A DNA stretch of 62,280 nt from Gemmatimonadaceae bacterium (GTDB lineage Bacteria > Gemmatimonadota > Gemmatimonadetes > Gemmatimonadales > Gemmatimonadaceae), in contig DASUHB010000015.1 of assembly GCA_036273715.1 (NCBI GenBank), positions 1 through 62,280 of the forward strand, in the 5' to 3' direction. Under the pieces are notes generated by a model, which searched no databases, was not told the DNA's origin, and saw only the letters and a list, made by a program, of their open reading frames with translations. This document shows positions 40,820 to 49,503 of the stretch, piece by piece (position 1 is the stretch's first letter; every line of letters starts with the position of its first letter). The position numbers and the translations under genes are program-made.

Positions 40820-41391
<572 letters not shown>

Positions 41392-41398
<7 letters not shown>

Positions 41399-42879
41399 GA
41401 CGCTTCGTCGCGCTCCTGCTGGCCGTGAGCTCGCCGCTCGCGGCCCAACAGGCGCACGAACGGGTGTACGTCCGGCACGCGGCGCCCATCCCATCGGGGC
41501 CGGTGATTGCCGATGCGCTCGCGCATCCGTACGTGACGCGCTACGAGAAGTGGAACACGCGACTGTTCAAGGACAGCGTGTTCGCGACCTCGGTGGTCGT
41601 CGTCGGCAGCGATGTGACGGTGGCGAGCACGGTGCACGGCGACGTGCTCGCCCTCGAGGGCAACGTGTTCCTGCGGCCGGGTGCGCACATCGACGGCCGG
41701 GCGATTGCCGTGGGCGGCCGCGTGTACGACTCGCGGGACGCAACGGTGGTGGGCGGCAAGCTCTCGTATCCTGATGTGCGCATCGACGCCGACACCACGA
41801 ACGACGGCATCGCGCTCGACTACGTGGCGCCCGCGGGGCCCGAGCTGGCCGGCATCTTCACGCTGCCGATGTTGTTCGGCTTTCGCGTGCCGAATTACGA
41901 CCGCGTGGACGGCCTGTCGGCGATTTGGGGTCCGCGGTTGTCTCTGTTAGGCGATCATCTCCGCGTCGATCCCACGATCACGTACCGCAGCGACCTCGGC
42001 ATGTGGGACCCTGAGGCGGCCATCGATGTGCCGTTGGGCCCCGACTGGCTGATCTCCGGTGACGCGGGGCGCTACACGCTGAGCAACGACGAGTGGATCG
42101 AGCCGGGGCTGGAGAACTCGCTTGCGGTGCTGGCGATCGGCCACGACTATCGCAACTATTGGCGCGCCGACCGGTTCCGCGGCACGATCATGCACACGTG
42201 GGCCGCCGGCTCCGGCCAGTTCTCCTTGGACGCCGGCGCCGCGACCGAACGCGACTGGTCGGGGCGGGCGGGCGGCCCGTGGAGCATCACCGGGTCGGAG
42301 GCGGCGGACGCGATGCTCCGGCCTAACCCGGTGATCGAGCACGGGCGCATCTCGTCGGTGTTGGGCAACGCCGCGGCGGCGTACCAGTTCGGCGACGTGA
42401 AGCTGTCGGGCGACGTTGGCGTCGAACGCCCGTTCGACACTCCGTTAGGCGAGCGCTTCACGCAAACGACGTTCGACGCCGATGTCTCGTTCCCGACGTT
42501 TGCGACGCAGCACTTTGCCTTCCACGCGCACGGCGTGCTGACCGCCGGCGATACAGCGCCGCCGCAGCGGTTCGCGTATCTCGGCGGGGCAGGGACGCTG
42601 CCCACCCTGGACGTGTTGTCGTTAGGCGGCGACCATCTGCTGTATCTCGTGGGCGTCTATACGATCCCGATCACCGGCCTCAGGGTGAAGTACCTCGGCG
42701 CGCCGACCATCGTGCTGCGCGACGCATTCGGGTCGGCCGGGGTCGGCGGCCTGCCGAGGTTCGAGCAGAACCTCGGCGCACGGCTCGGTTTCTCGTTCTT
42801 CTTCGTCGGCTACGATTTCGATCCGCGCACGCACCGCGACGCGGTGAGCTTCGGGGTCAGGGTGCCCGGGCAGCACTAG
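41392..42879 (+). CDS. Exported protein, repetitive N-domain and beta-barrel-like C-half
   Basis: 495 residues, not recognised as a named family. It has a short signal peptide (MLRRFVALLLAVSSPLAAQQ). Residues about 65-130 form valine/glycine-rich short turns (VVVVGSDVTV, GDVLALEGNVFLRPGAHIDGRA), like polymer-forming beta-helix repeats of bactofilin type. From about residue 150 onward, alternating hydrophobic/aromatic strands and a C-terminal run ending FFFVGYDFDPRTHRD, VSFGVRV suggest an outer-membrane barrel. Overlaps the amidotransferase stop, and its own stop overlaps the convergent DinB gene. Surface or envelope role is inference. Confidence 0.6.
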
Positions 42880-43427
42880 AGCGCGTTCTTTCTGGCGGCT
42901 TTGGGCGGCTGCCACCACCACATCCGGTTGACCACCTCGTGCGGGAGCCGCGCGCCTAACTGACGGCAGGCGAGCACCAGCTGCCCCCGGTGGTGGGCTT
43001 CGTGCGCGATGAAGTACGACAGCACGTGGCCGACATCCAGCGGGAGGTTCCGCCAGACGTACTTGGCCGTGGGCGGTACCGTGCCGCCCGCCCGCAACCC
43101 GGCGCGCAACACGGCTTCGATACCGTTGGCGCTTCCCGGCAAGGCGGCGAGCACCGCTCGCCGCGTCGCCTTGAAGGTGCTCACGCGAGGTGGCCGCTCA
43201 ATGCCTAACGGGACGCCGAGCGTGTTGATCCAGCCGCTGCGCGAATTGTGGAAGTGCGCGGCTACCATGCGGACCGTGCGACGCGGCAACCCGGGCAGCG
43301 GCGCCTCCCAGATGGCGCGCGGCAGACCGCTCACCAGCAGCCGCGTGATGCGGCAGTTCGTGCGCCACGGTTCGAGGATCAGCTCGTCCGTCGGCACCGG
43401 CCTGGTAACGAGAGATGTGGTGCGCAC
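42876..43427 (-). CDS. DinB-like four-helix metalloprotein
   Basis: 183 residues. The DinB/YfiT fold is suggested by spaced histidines expected to bind a divalent metal: VAAHFHNSR near residue 57 and FIAHEAHHRGQLVLACRQLG near residue 142, the second being the typical DinB C-terminal helix. Such proteins include thiol-dependent transferases and many stress proteins; no specific reaction can be named. The start is a GTG at 43427. Its 3' end overlaps the stop of the convergent exported-protein gene by four bases. Confidence 0.75.
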   Translation of the reverse strand: MRTTSLVTRPVPTDELILEPWRTNCRITRLLVSGLPRAIWEAPLPGLPRRTVRMVAAHFHNSRSGWINTLGVPLGIERPPRVSTFKATRRAVLAALPGSANGIEAVLRAGLRAGGTVPPTAKYVWRNLPLDVGHVLSYFIAHEAHHRGQLVLACRQLGARLPHEVVNRMWWWQPPKAARKNAL

Positions 43428-43484
43428 GCTCGGATTTTCGCCGCCTCGCGCCGTCGGCGCAAGACAGGGCGATGCCGCCGGCGA

Positions 43485-46400
43485 TCAATCGCGCAACGTG
43501 CCGCTCGCCGAGCGGATGCGATCGAGAATGTTCGCGTCGTGTATCGAGCCATCCCGAGCGAGCAGCAACACCTTCGACAAGACTTCCGCCGTCCGCGGAT
43601 CATCGTCGGCGAACGGAAGAAAGAGCCGGCCGCGATGCTGCGAATGCACGGCCACTATCGGGATCGCCGTCGCCGGCATGAGCATCACACCGGCACTGCC
43701 CAAGTGCACCGAATACGTGCCGAGCTGGCCACGTACGATGGCGTGATGCGCTTTCAGCTCGACGTTGTCGAGCCCGAGCAACTGGCACGTCTCGCCAATG
43801 AGCGTAGCGCGCATCTCGACGGTCGAGGCCGTTGCCTCGGGATCGACACCGCCGCTGTGCGCCACACTCACCACGAGATCCAGATCCCGCATCGTCTCGC
43901 TGAACACGCGCGGCGGGATCTGGTCGAGAGGCAGGGGCGCTCCGTCCGCTTTCTTCGTGAACGCGACCTCGGCGAGCGTCAATCCCTCGATATCCGCAGG
44001 AGTAAAGAACGCCTCGTCGAACCCCAGCCGTGCCGTTAGGCCCGCATCGTGGAAGGTCCGGCTCACGCCTTCATCCGGCGACACGAGCCAGCCACGGCCG
44101 CCGAGCAGCGCGAGCGCCTGTCGCGGATTGACCTGATGCCCGGCGTACCGGCGCGACCGCTGCACTCCGCGCTCGCTGTCGATGATCGGATACAGTTCGC
44201 GAAAGACCTGCTTGAACGGCTGCACGCGCTCGGCCCGGAAGCACTCGCGCTGCCAGGTCGACCAGTCTCCCCTCGCGAACAGATCATGGGGATGCGCAAT
44301 GCGCACCTGTTCCGCGTTGCCCAACACGTGGGTCGCGCCGGCGCCGTCCAGCAGCGCGCGACCGCCCTCCGCCGGATACCCGGCCGAGCCGTCGCCCACG
44401 AATACGAGGCGCGCGATGGACGGCGCGAGGATCGGATGTTGGAGCAGCGTGCCTAACTCAGCAGGCGTAAACGCGTCGCCGCGGCACATCGCCTCCTCGA
44501 GCGCCGCGCGCACGCGCGATCGTTGGCGTTTGAGCTCCTGCAGCCGCTCCCTGAGCTCCTGCGCATCGTCATCCGTCTTGAGCGAGGCGGGGAGCGCCTT
44601 GAGGGTCTTGCCGTTTTTCTGGATGGCGAGCGACGGCACGCCGTCGCCGTCGATGCCTAACGTAAGCGTGACGTCGCCGCGCGTCACCATCAGCGGGCCG
44701 CGCACCAGGTCAGCGACCGCTTGTTGTTCCATCGCCCACGTCAACCGTTGGGGATCGCGATAGCCCGCGGTGCGCGCAAGGTTTGCCAGCCCGATGGTCA
44801 CCGCGCGCTTCTCGCTCTGTTGCCGCTGCGATCCAAACTTGCGCGACTCGCGCCGGAAGTTCTCGAGGCGGATGTAGCGCTCGAGCACATCGCGTTTCCC
44901 CGCGGCGCCGGCCGCGAGCGGCAGCAACCCGAGCGCACGCACCGAGTCCTGGTGGCGCTTGCCATCGATCCGTCCGAGCATTGCCTCGCGCGTGATCGCC
45001 CCGCACATCGCGTCGGCAAAGAGCTGGGCGCGGGAGTGACCGCCACTGCTCGCCGCATACTTCGCGGCCCCGTACAGCACCCGCCAGCGGTCCGCGCCCA
45101 ACGCCGTGTAAATCCGCTCGAACCACGCGACGTCCACCGCGCCCTCCGTCAACTCGTCGGCCGAGAGGGGCGTGTGCTCGCCCGCACCAGCGGCCCATTC
45201 GTCTTTGAGATCTCGCAGCTGCCAGGAACGGCCGTCCTTCGTATGCGCTTCGATCCACCATACCCCGTCCTCGAGGCCGGGCCACTCGAGCACGTGATTG
45301 ACGTGGGCGGCCCATTGCGGCGCATACACCGCGAGCTCGACCAGCCGCGACTGCGGGATCCTCGCCGATCTCGCCCACGCCGCAAAGGCGTCCGGCGTGT
45401 CCTCGGGCCGCGGAAAGCTCCGCACCACCAGATGGCTCAACGACTCCTGCCGCGCTTCGCCCATCCGCGACCAGCCGAAGTTGCGGGCGAAATGCGTCTT
45501 GCCTAACGCGGGCAGCGCGCGCGCGAGCGTCTCGAGGCCGCCGGTCCACCGCAGTTCCATCACGTGGCGCGACACGGCCGTCGGCCGATCGCCGCGTTCG
45601 CATTCGACCTCGACCATGCGACGACGGCACCGATCCACTACGTCCACCAGCTCCGGGTGCTCGGCAAGGGCATTGGGCGGACGTCTGGTCGATACGACGC
45701 GCAGGAGATTCGACGTCATTTGATCCGTCCACCGCCCAACGAGCAAATCAGTCAACTCGGCGCACGGGTCTCGAAGGGCATTCGCGCGATATACGCTCAG
45801 GAAATCGTCGAGACCGATGCGCATCCGGACGTGCCCGCGCGAACGCGTCTCCAGCGTACGGAGGGTGCCGTACAAGGATCCAGCAGCCTCCGGCTGCACT
45901 GTTTTCGGAAAGAGCGACCGCCACCAGCGCGCGCGATTCAGCCACAGCTGCACGTGATTCAATTTTCGCTGCACCGGCCGCTTCTGGTCGGCCGCCCCAT
46001 AGTGCCAGACGTTCGAAGCCGCAGCATCATTCTCCAACTCCGCATACTCGTCGGCGTCGATCGCAGCGACCGCCGACTCGAGGCCGCTCACGAGAAACTC
46101 GAATCCGTGGGCGGGCGGATCCCAGGCAACGCTCCACGCGAGCAGTCCGTGCATGAGCGCGTTGTGCATGTGCTTCATGTTCCCATCGCGCAGCTTCTGC
46201 ACAGGAGCGCTCTTCCACACCTCGCTGTCATCGTCCGGCACGAGCGCGCGCAGCAATTCGAGCCCGTCGTCGTCGCGGAGCGCCGCCGGCCGGCTCCGCG
46301 CCCACGTGCGCCAGACGTCGACGAGTGGGACGCCCGTGCCGCCATTCTCGATGTCTTCCCGCTTGCGAGGCCCGAACGACCAACCGACCGACTGCGGCAA

Positions 46401-48449
46401 CAACACGACTTCTCCGTTAGGCCGACGAATCTCCGTTTCGGCGTTGGCCACGATGAGCTCGGCGAGCGCCGCCACCGACGCGCGCGCGCCCGCGCTGTCG
46501 ACCTTCACCTTCCGGCGTTTCGGCTCGGGCCACGCTTGCATCGCGCGCGGATCGATCAGCCCGAGTGCATTTTCTGTACTGGCGACCGTCGGCTCGGTTA
46601 GAACCGCCGCGACGTGCACTTCTTCCTGCTTCGAGAGCGTCTGCCGCACCGCACGGTATCGTTCCATGCGCGCGCGCACCGCTGCCAGCGAGCGTTTCTT
46701 CTCCATGGCATCGCGCAACAACTCCAAGCCGGCCTGCCGTCGCGTCTCGCTCGTATCCGCGAGCAGGCGGTCCGCCGCGTTCAACAGGGCCGCATCGGAC
46801 AGCGCGCGCAATCGGGTCAGCGATCGCGCGCGCAGGTCGCTCGCCTTTCGATCGAGAAGGGTGACGATGCGTTCGACCTCATCACTCTCGAGCGGCAACG
46901 CGTCGAGCACGTGGTAGGCCGTCGAGCGCACCGGTTCGGACGCATCGCCGAGCAAGTCGATCGCGAGGGCGCGCTCGCCGGCCGACAGCGGCCGTCTCTT
47001 CGATTCGGGCTGGCCTCGCATGCGGTGCGCGGCGAGGCCGGCAACGCCGCGCAGAAAGGCGGCGCGACCATCGGCGTTGAGGTCCCGAACGTGCGGCAGG
47101 AGGCGGTCGCCCGGAATGTGGGCAGCGTGAACGACCATCGCCGCCGCAACGTGTGAGCGCTCGAGCGTACGCTTCCACCACGGCCAGACAAGCGCGTCGA
47201 GGTGCTGGCCGCGCTTGGGAATTCGCGCGATGAGCTGCTCCAGGCGACCGAACATCTGTGCGACGTCCGCGTGCTTCGACCGGTCCGCGAAAAATCCGTC
47301 GAGCGCCCGCGCGGCAACCCGCAAATCGGCGTCGCCTAACAGATGGCTCAAACTATCGAACGCGCTCGGCCACGCGGACTGCACGAGGATATGTGCCGCG
47401 ACGAACCGCATCGATTCCGAGCCCGATGATGCGAGGTTGGCCGCCAACGGAAGGGCCGCCTCGACGTTGTGGAACGCGACACACCAGAGTGCAAGGTACG
47501 CAGATTCGGCGTCGTCGCCGTTCAGCGCGGCGGCTTGGGCGGCGTCATCATCGAGCAGCGCGAGCACGCGGCCGAGCAGGCCATCGATCTTGACCTGCGA
47601 CGTGCCATCCCAGAGGAAACCGAACCACGTGTCCGCGGCGCGAATGACGGATGAGAATCGGGCCAGGTTGTGTTCGCGGATGACGGTGACGAGGCGGCGA
47701 AATGCCGCGGGGTGCGACTCGTCGACGCTCTCGAGAATGATCTGGCGCAGTCCTTCCTCTCGCTGCGCCGCAAGCAGCAACCGCTCGACGAGCTGCCAGG
47801 CGTCAGGGCGCGCGCAGCTCAGGAGAGCCTGGGTGACGTGCCGACCCATTTGCGACGTCGGATGGTCGCCGCGCACCGTCGCAGCCAAGATTTCGAACAC
47901 GGCGTCGCCCGTAGCGCCACCCGAATCGATCGCGCCGGCGAGCAACCAACCCAGATCGACCGCGCCCGACCATCCCGCCAGATGCGCCGCGTGCTCGGCG
48001 ATCCACACGATGTCCGCGTCGTAGTCGCCGAGGAGCAGGGCAACGCTTGCCAGCCACCGGCCGCGAATGGTCGCCAGCGTCACCCGCGAGTGCGGCGCGC
48101 GGAACGGCCGGCGCGTTAGGCCCTCGGTGTAAGGACGGCGAACGAGGCCGTCGAGCGCGCACGCGACGCTGGATTCCACGCGCGGCAGAAGGGTCTGAGC
48201 CAGGCGGCGCCAGCCGTCGTCGCCGAGTGCACCGAGCTGCGCGCCTAACTCTGCGCGGTTGCGGGCGATCACGGCGTGCCGCGAATACTCCGACGTCTGG
48301 AGCGCCTGCTCGAGCATCGCGCGCACCGTGGGTGGCACGGCGGCACCGACGAGCGCCGCGGCCTGCTGCTTGATGCCGGTTAGGCGGGCCAGCAACGAAC
48401 CGGGTTGTCGCTTGGCGGCCAACTCGGCCTGGATGTGCTCGTTGTCCAT
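43485..48449 (-). CDS. Giant DUF4132-type (MolR/YehI-like) protein
   Basis: 1654 residues, no signal peptide or membrane helix, so cytoplasmic. Residues ~1-600 are alpha-helical and repetitive, like HEAT repeats (for example SEPVRSTAYHVLDALPLESDEVE). The C-terminal third matches the DUF4132 architecture: LARTAGYRDPQRLTWAMEQ, KTLKALPASLK, RQRSRVRAALEEAMCRGDAFT, HPILAPSIARLVFVGD, and the terminal LFLPFADDDPRTAEVLSKVLLLA with SIHDANIL. Relatives include E. coli YehI; the biochemical role is unknown. Elsewhere such genes occur near MoxR-AAA and VWA genes, absent here. It is preceded by a 142-residue gene three bases upstream, and is the longest gene in the window. Confidence 0.78.
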   Translation of the reverse strand: MDNEHIQAELAAKRQPGSLLARLTGIKQQAAALVGAAVPPTVRAMLEQALQTSEYSRHAVIARNRAELGAQLGALGDDGWRRLAQTLLPRVESSVACALDGLVRRPYTEGLTRRPFRAPHSRVTLATIRGRWLASVALLLGDYDADIVWIAEHAAHLAGWSGAVDLGWLLAGAIDSGGATGDAVFEILAATVRGDHPTSQMGRHVTQALLSCARPDAWQLVERLLLAAQREEGLRQIILESVDESHPAAFRRLVTVIREHNLARFSSVIRAADTWFGFLWDGTSQVKIDGLLGRVLALLDDDAAQAAALNGDDAESAYLALWCVAFHNVEAALPLAANLASSGSESMRFVAAHILVQSAWPSAFDSLSHLLGDADLRVAARALDGFFADRSKHADVAQMFGRLEQLIARIPKRGQHLDALVWPWWKRTLERSHVAAAMVVHAAHIPGDRLLPHVRDLNADGRAAFLRGVAGLAAHRMRGQPESKRRPLSAGERALAIDLLGDASEPVRSTAYHVLDALPLESDEVERIVTLLDRKASDLRARSLTRLRALSDAALLNAADRLLADTSETRRQAGLELLRDAMEKKRSLAAVRARMERYRAVRQTLSKQEEVHVAAVLTEPTVASTENALGLIDPRAMQAWPEPKRRKVKVDSAGARASVAALAELIVANAETEIRRPNGEVVLLPQSVGWSFGPRKREDIENGGTGVPLVDVWRTWARSRPAALRDDDGLELLRALVPDDDSEVWKSAPVQKLRDGNMKHMHNALMHGLLAWSVAWDPPAHGFEFLVSGLESAVAAIDADEYAELENDAAASNVWHYGAADQKRPVQRKLNHVQLWLNRARWWRSLFPKTVQPEAAGSLYGTLRTLETRSRGHVRMRIGLDDFLSVYRANALRDPCAELTDLLVGRWTDQMTSNLLRVVSTRRPPNALAEHPELVDVVDRCRRRMVEVECERGDRPTAVSRHVMELRWTGGLETLARALPALGKTHFARNFGWSRMGEARQESLSHLVVRSFPRPEDTPDAFAAWARSARIPQSRLVELAVYAPQWAAHVNHVLEWPGLEDGVWWIEAHTKDGRSWQLRDLKDEWAAGAGEHTPLSADELTEGAVDVAWFERIYTALGADRWRVLYGAAKYAASSGGHSRAQLFADAMCGAITREAMLGRIDGKRHQDSVRALGLLPLAAGAAGKRDVLERYIRLENFRRESRKFGSQRQQSEKRAVTIGLANLARTAGYRDPQRLTWAMEQQAVADLVRGPLMVTRGDVTLTLGIDGDGVPSLAIQKNGKTLKALPASLKTDDDAQELRERLQELKRQRSRVRAALEEAMCRGDAFTPAELGTLLQHPILAPSIARLVFVGDGSAGYPAEGGRALLDGAGATHVLGNAEQVRIAHPHDLFARGDWSTWQRECFRAERVQPFKQVFRELYPIIDSERGVQRSRRYAGHQVNPRQALALLGGRGWLVSPDEGVSRTFHDAGLTARLGFDEAFFTPADIEGLTLAEVAFTKKADGAPLPLDQIPPRVFSETMRDLDLVVSVAHSGGVDPEATASTVEMRATLIGETCQLLGLDNVELKAHHAIVRGQLGTYSVHLGSAGVMLMPATAIPIVAVHSQHRGRLFLPFADDDPRTAEVLSKVLLLARDGSIHDANILDRIRSASGTLRD

Positions 48450-48452
48450 GCG

Positions 48453-48881
48453 TTAGGCGCCGGCCAGGAAGGTGAGACGGACGAAGACGAGGGTACTCGA
48501 GTCGTTCGGGTAGACCTGGGCATCGAGATCGCGCTGCTCGACGCCGTCGAGCACGACCAGGTAGAGTCCATCTTCGAAGCCCTGGAGCGCGGCGCCGACC
48601 GCTGAATCGGGGTCGGCAACCGGAGCACTGGGGCGTCCGCCCGAATCGATCTTGCCGACGGCCGCGCCACCGGCGATGTCGGACGCTGATAGCACGCGCA
48701 TCAGGCGCCTCTGTCGCTGGCGCTCGTCGAACGCCGCGACCTCGCCGCGGACCACGCCCGTGATGAGCGCCCGCAACGTCAGCGCGTCGTCGCCGCCGTC
48801 ACCCGTTCGCGGCGGGACGGGAATCGACCAGCGGTCGAACGCGCGAGGTTTTTTCGCCAGGACGCGTGTCTCGATGAACAT
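48453..48881 (-). CDS. 142-residue partner of the DUF4132 protein
   Basis: I do not recognise a named family. The protein is soluble, mixed alpha/beta, with well-ordered blocks that look conserved: LRALITGVVRGEVAAFDERQ, RLMRVLSASDIAGGAAVGKI, AVGAALQGFEDGLYLVVLDG, and a C-terminal VFVRLTFLAGA. ATG at 48881, TAA stop made by a CCTAAC motif, and only three bases to the ATG of the DUF4132 gene, so the two are almost surely translated together and probably interact. Divergent from the kinase gene at 48988. Confidence 0.65.
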   Translation of the reverse strand: MFIETRVLAKKPRAFDRWSIPVPPRTGDGGDDALTLRALITGVVRGEVAAFDERQRQRRLMRVLSASDIAGGAAVGKIDSGGRPSAPVADPDSAVGAALQGFEDGLYLVVLDGVEQRDLDAQVYPNDSSTLVFVRLTFLAGA

Positions 48882-48987
48882 GCCATGAGCCTCAGTGCAA
48901 GGACACTTTGGCGGGCGTCGCCGTCACCGTGCGATCAGAACGGAATTCTTGCTGGACAGCAGGAGGCCGGTGGCTAACTTCGGGCGT

Positions 48988-49503
48988 ATGCCGAAGCCGA
49001 TCCTCATTCTCTCCGGTCCCGTCGGATCCGGCAAGAGCACGGTCGCGCGCGAGCTGGTTCGCCTCCTAACGGACGAGGTGGTGCTGATCGAGGGCGATGT
49101 CTTCTGGTCGTTCTACGCGAAGGGCGCGCCGGGGCCGGCGCAGAAGCGAATTCGCACGATCATGTCGGCGATGATCGCGGCTGCCATTCCGTATGCGACA
49201 GGCGGATCGCACGTCATTCTCGATTTCTCGATTCCGCCCTGGTTTCTCGAGACGGTGCGGAAGGTCGCCGCGATGCGAGAGGTACCGCTCGACTACGTGG
49301 TGTTGCGGCCGCCGGAGCAGGTGTGCGCGGCGCGGGCAAAGGCCCGCGCGGACGGGAGTATCGCCGATTACTCGCTCTATAGCGAGTTGTACCGCGACTT
49401 CGACCAGGTCCCGCACCACATCCTCTCCGACGACGCCATGTCTCCAGCCGAGCACGCGACGGCGATTCTGCGTGGCGTCGCGGAAGGACGGTTCCGCCTC
49501 TAG
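48988..49503 (+). CDS. Small P-loop kinase of the AAA_33/zeta type
   Basis: 171 residues. Walker A is GPVGSGKST at residues 10-18. An acidic residue after a beta strand (VVLIEGDVFW) and a later basic lid (RAKARADGS) match nucleoside/shikimate-kinase-like P-loop enzymes and the zeta-toxin/chloramphenicol phosphotransferase group. The substrate cannot be predicted. The start at ATG 48988 sits just before the Walker A strand; the upstream frame is unconserved. No antitoxin-like small gene accompanies it, so a toxin role is not supported. It is divergent from the DUF4132 module. Confidence 0.7.
   Translation: MPKPILILSGPVGSGKSTVARELVRLLTDEVVLIEGDVFWSFYAKGAPGPAQKRIRTIMSAMIAAAIPYATGGSHVILDFSIPPWFLETVRKVAAMREVPLDYVVLRPPEQVCAARAKARADGSIADYSLYSELYRDFDQVPHHILSDDAMSPAEHATAILRGVAEGRFRL

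Follow-up and report, generated by a model that had tools for sequence, protein, structure and literature searches.

A predicted ubiquitin-fold protein and a DUF4132-DUF7737 protein encoded as a widespread two-gene module

Do a very large DUF4132-type protein and the small protein encoded just upstream of it belong to one system, and what kind of system would that be? The question is raised by two adjacent genes in a Gemmatimonadaceae genome, which we analysed in a window of 62,280 nucleotides (positions 1 to 62,280 of contig DASUHB010000015.1). A sequence-only reading had described a 1654-residue and a 142-residue open reading frame separated by three bases, and both are present: the large gene (ATG to TGA) occupies 43485..48449 and the small gene (ATG to TAA) 48453..48881, each on the minus strand. 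GC3 is 0.82 in each, like that of the neighbours, and the codon-position G+C is that of genuine genes. The same reading placed the pair on the strand opposite to its surroundings, which holds for xerD, trpG and a 523-aa ORF as well as for the kinase gene, kdsB and pyrG, but not for the adjoining DinB-like ORF (42876-43427), which also lies on the minus strand. The 523-aa ORF (41308-42879), which follows trpG, has no Pfam match and is kept in genomes of the family at 36-86% identity. The kinase gene (48988-49503), divergent from the pair, encodes a small P-loop kinase that matches AAA_33, with weaker CPT and zeta-toxin matches, and it is also found in a same-genus genome (G001) without the pair.

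The sequence-only reading would have been undermined had the small gene failed to co-occur with DUF4132 genes, and co-occurrence proved close to complete. When 84,980 species genomes were scanned with the small family, 68 loci were recovered from about ten phyla (Planctomycetota, Chloroflexota, Armatimonadota, Cyanobacteriota, Verrucomicrobiota, Actinomycetota, Bacteroidota, Bacillota, Pseudomonadota and Melainabacteria), and in 66 of the 68 a clear same-strand DUF4132-family gene adjoins the small gene; the remaining two are a locus with only a short partial match (L064) and a contig edge (L039). Gaps between the genes are mostly -4 to +8 bases, and the order is reversed, large then small, in most Flavobacteriia and Glaciecola (L050, L055, L067, L069, L070, L072). 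Starting from the large family gave the same picture: all five testable full-length loci outside the seed (G107, G497, G571, G583, G674) have the small gene, as does a short version of the large protein (G310); two further loci, G266 and G071, are cut by contig ends and fall outside the testable count, and one remnant, 147 aa long and from Chloroflexota (G950), occurs by itself. Full-length family members occur on Deinococcus megaplasmids and one Bacteroides plasmid, with the small gene just upstream. No other gene recurs beside the pair across phyla in the neighbourhood survey. On this comparative evidence the two genes are evidently inherited together as a unit. Frameshifted or remnant copies in Chloroflexota (L179, L181, L183, L208) suggest frequent decay there, and at L187 (10094-12618) transposase-like ORFs lie beyond a small gene that has no DUF4132 partner, as if an insertion had broken the module.

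In the large protein, Pfam recognises a DUF5724 region (PF18991; residues 82-1240, 44730..48206, minus strand; E 4e-200), a DUF4132 domain (PF13569; residues 1280-1454, 44088..44612, minus strand; E 2e-45), a DUF7737 domain (PF24879; residues 1544-1645, 43515..43820, minus strand; E 3e-32) and, weakly, HEAT_2; the three principal matches score 668, 155 and 111 bits against curated cut-offs of 25-27, which places the protein within these families. The strongest conserved motifs sit in the C-terminal DUF4132-DUF7737 region: QPFKQ.FRE.Y in the DUF4132 domain, conserved in 65 relatives, and SE.MRD.DL..SVAH.GGVDPE.S.ST (residues 1517-1543) immediately ahead of DUF7737. Conserved residues of this region include Q1410, F1412, R1417, E1418, Y1420, R1521, D1522, H1531 and D1536. 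An AlphaFold2 model of residues 936-1654 (pLDDT 87.9), taken with the domain matches, depicts HEAT-like helical repeats followed by a C-terminal alpha/beta region; helical repeats dominated the structural matches, and for the alpha/beta region no catalytic fold was recognised and no PDB match was informative. A profile search brought up divergent small genes, in Chloroflexota and Cyanobacteriota, and in the divergent Chloroflexota, cyanobacterial and Planctomycetota pairs the neighbouring protein shares only the C-terminal DUF4132-DUF7737 region, with an N-terminus that is variable in both sequence and length (the proteins measure 706 to about 1500 aa in full). Because this is the only part that the divergent pairs have in common, DUF4132-DUF7737 is evidently the partner region of all versions of the module, and the association does not depend on the greater part of the DUF5724 helical region. 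Partner residues that seemed specific to one tail class (W1085, T1483, L1558) were set aside as confounded by phylogeny.

The small protein had been called unrecognised, with blocks that look conserved. The blocks are genuine, since relatives are 24-57% identical, and by sequence the label fits: the protein has no match in Pfam, NCBIfam or PADLOC, searches of the family against Pfam, NCBIfam, PDB and PHROGs gave nothing usable, and no meaningful Pfam match was found in 66 members. Structure prediction changes this assessment. A template-free AlphaFold2 model built from an alignment of 66 relatives (pLDDT 78, pTM 0.70) arranges its elements as beta, beta, alpha with two extra helices, beta, beta, beta. 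Foldseek ranks MoaD first, with a weak E value (0.15); VIA-align places human MOCS2A (Z 7.6), Urm1 (7.1 and 6.5), SAMP1 (6.0), ThiS (6.0) and ubiquitin (about 6) at the top, and among the structural matches listed, with Z 5.6-7.6, nearly all have the ubiquitin fold. The alignments extend as far as model residues 136-142, the site of the tails, and a published model of the Deinococcus radiodurans protein DR_A0165 matched the same entries, 5MPO, 3PO0, 1WGK, 6JBZ, 6JC0, 1V8C and 2L52 (PMC9650054). Z values below 8 would be weak on their own, and comparison of the family with MoaD/ThiS by hhalign gave E 0.011 against 0.04-0.08 for reversed controls; it is the uniformity of the matches, the position of the tail and the independent prediction for DR_A0165 that make the predicted ubiquitin (beta-grasp) fold convincing, as a likeness of fold and not as proof of common descent. 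MoaD, ThiS, Urm1 and SAMP1 thus resemble the small family in predicted fold and in the position of a C-terminal Gly-Gly, and differ from it in that the family carries a helical insertion of about 40 residues, does not have Gly-Gly in all members, has no linked E1 and shows no significant sequence or profile match to them.

In the window the C-terminal tail of the small protein reads LAGA (48456..48467, minus strand) in place of the LAGG of most same-clade relatives, so that the protein does not end in the Gly-Gly of conjugating and sulphur-carrier proteins. Tails at the 68 loci end exactly in GG in 29 cases, in GA in three, and in G plus two residues and an aromatic (GxxW/Y/F) in 35, one of which carries an extra residue; one is out of line. 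The first tail glycine (G141) is invariant in the family alignment. Among the intact divergent members, almost all have GG at the end, in some cases followed by one or two further residues. Alanine replaces the last glycine in the window, L003, L022, L031 and L037, which represent no fewer than three separate branches, and the deepest branch of the partner tree (support 100/100) exactly separates GG/GA tails from GxxW/Y/F tails. Distances in the small and large proteins are correlated, a sign of co-evolution, at 0.87 overall and at 0.64 and 0.95 within the two clades. Given these repeated alanine replacements, and aromatic tails that continue beyond the glycine, chemistry that needs a free terminal glycine cannot be general in the family; a conserved tail that fits a pocket in the partner would explain all the tail classes.

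The pair was also described as being of unknown function, but it has been studied in part: both homologues lie adjacent and on one strand in Deinococcus radiodurans, where drA0165, a 134-aa gene (DR_A0165 is SEP068184), is directly upstream of the DUF4132 gene drA0166. The large proteins are 41% identical; Deinococcus small proteins, that of D. radiodurans included, end in GG, whereas those of the window and L003 end in GA. The literature treats the two genes apart. Control of the operon by DNA damage through DdrO and IrrE has been shown in Deinococcus: integrated genomic data put drA0165-drA0166 under the control of DdrO, the motif lying 83 bases upstream, and induction of DRA0166 by mitomycin C depends on IrrE (PMC8533742). 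DR_A0165 is itself induced by gamma rays and peroxide, its deletion improves survival of H2O2, and it binds the thioredoxin Trx1; the authors of that study, who also published a MoaD-like model, considered it restricted to Deinococcus and without an RDRM (PMC9650054). The 68-locus scan contradicts the first of these statements. As to the second, we found an RDRM-like palindrome, TATGCTATTTACATA, at -79 to -92 in three Deinococcus loci, with a variant in D. ficus; at L007 (5300-5390) it lies at -79, in agreement with PMC8533742 and not with PMC9650054. The window has no RDRM-type palindrome upstream of the pair, and clear damage-type boxes occur only in Deinococcus. Searches for LexA and DinR sites returned only LexA-like boxes in a cyanobacterium (L023, at -33, AGTACATTTGTTC) and a member of Chloroflexota (L029, at -48, GAACATTAGTTC), with no strict DinR box upstream at any locus, Bacillota included, and a general link to the SOS response was rejected. 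In our literature search DUF5724 was not found named and DUF4132 was seldom named.

Comparison within the genus indicates how the module reached its present site. In G001, xerD, trpG, the 523-aa ORF and the DinB-like gene are followed directly by the kinase gene, kdsB and pyrG, at 77-96% identity, and the pair is absent. By synteny and junction alignment with L240, homology extends to about 43394 and begins again at about 48973, so that only the pair, a segment of about 5.6 kb (43395..48972), differs; other relatives in the family are also without it. No integrase, direct repeat or target duplication was found at the boundaries. The module was apparently gained alone or, less simply, lost. Among 200 sampled genomes of the window's phylum, about 3 have the large family, and in each of three phyla its sampled frequency is about 1-2%, which fits horizontal spread; the partner tree keeps most phyla together.

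We propose that the two genes make up an autonomous stress module and that the ubiquitin-like protein docks tail-first on the DUF4132-DUF7737 region of its partner, a reading we hold to be somewhat better than an even prospect. Binding would be non-covalent, the conserved tail of the small protein entering its partner in the way that the tail of MoaD enters MoaE; docking would switch or complete an activity of DUF4132-DUF7737; the variable helical-repeat N-terminus may choose a target or sense damage; and the outcome in Deinococcus would be a restraint on peroxide tolerance. Against docking stand the moderate structural similarity, the non-significant profile comparison with MoaD/ThiS, the lack of a recognised catalytic fold in the C-terminal alpha/beta region, damage-type boxes that are clear in Deinococcus alone, and the fact that the reported interaction partner of DR_A0165 is Trx1. 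The tail also invites a covalent reading, in which the small protein is a modifier or sulphur carrier whose C-terminal glycine is activated by a host E1-like MoeB/ThiF protein, DUF4132-DUF7737 being the acceptor, the ligase or a sulphur-transfer enzyme. The exact GG of 29 of the 68 loci and of nearly all divergent members, a tail that aligns with those of ubiquitin and MoaD, and E1-like ThiF proteins in 8/8 carrier genomes argue for it, and in members with GG a covalent modifier is conceivable; yet ThiF is nearly universal (12/14 control genomes), genes for E1, E2 or JAB do not recur next to the pair, the alanine replacements are repeated and a whole clade ends in GxxW/Y/F, and we judge this reading unlikely. 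In a variant that dispenses with the classical E1, DUF4132-DUF7737 itself would activate, transfer or cleave the tail, and the helical repeats would choose the target after DNA damage; such ubiquitin-like signalling with its own enzyme strikes us as rather improbable. Because MoaD is among the best structural matches, and because a quoted DUF4132 annotation led to the suggestion (PMC8533742), an accessory role in the molybdopterin pathway might also be considered. The window, however, opens with a row of moaD, moaE and moaA (348-1994), encoding a classical MoaD that ends in PPVAGG, far from the pair; with the genome's own set lying elsewhere, and with no Moco gene recurring next to the pair and moeA/moeB not co-regulated in D. 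radiodurans (PMC8533742), such a role can be given very little credence.

The sequence-only reading had seen a resemblance to conflict or signalling systems. The small protein might hold or trigger a harmful activity of the large one upon infection or DNA damage, and the patchy spread, the clean cargo-only gain within a genus, the conserved C-terminus beside a variable N-terminus, and damage induction with a survival cost in Deinococcus are all consistent with this. The module, however, sits among housekeeping genes, defence genes do not recur beside it, no relatives were found in phage records or IMG/VR contigs, and PADLOC matched none of its models to the window's proteins and gave only one weak HEAT-repeat match across the pairs. 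An anti-phage or conflict role is compatible with the spread, yet no finding links the module directly to phage defence; we hold such a role as a tentative possibility. That the pair is a branch separate from DUF4132 proteins linked to MoxR and VWA genes had also been suggested as a possibility, and is supported. In Escherichia coli the DUF4132 protein YehI is encoded in yehI-yehL-yehM-yehP-yehQ, with MoxR (yehL), VWA (yehP) and SWIM (yehQ) partners, and the yehH remnant weakly matches our C-terminal profile (E 3e-9), so that the pair could be a reduced system of this kind that uses AAA and VWA proteins encoded elsewhere; but the yeh locus has no relative of the small protein at E up to 10, neither MoxR nor VWA families recur near the pairs, and we regard the idea as very unlikely. 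In E. coli K-12 (L172, 7233-8270) the match falls on the yehH pseudogene, and yehI itself gave none at E up to 1. Bacterial operons with a ubiquitin-like protein and E1, E2 and JAB components, among them the Bil systems, form a further comparison. Types of such operons were described by Iyer et al. 2006 (PMC1779556). They too are mobile and built around a ubiquitin-like protein; in the module studied here E1, E2 and JAB are absent from the neighbourhood and the partner is the DUF4132-DUF7737 protein.

The module is real, widespread and little studied. The DUFs, the Deinococcus operon and a MoaD-like model were already known. What is new, as far as our tools show, is that the partnership is obligate and how widely it occurs, together with the identity of the partner region, the classes of tail and the cargo-only gain. 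What had been two orphan genes, one of them studied as a genus-specific peptide in D. radiodurans, becomes a conserved two-part system present in at least ten phyla, with the partner region and the tail named as targets for mutation. If either the docking model or the reading of DUF4132-DUF7737 as an enzyme that acts on the tail is correct, these pairs would represent an E1-less use of ubiquitin-like proteins in bacteria, and DUF4132 would gain its first testable function.
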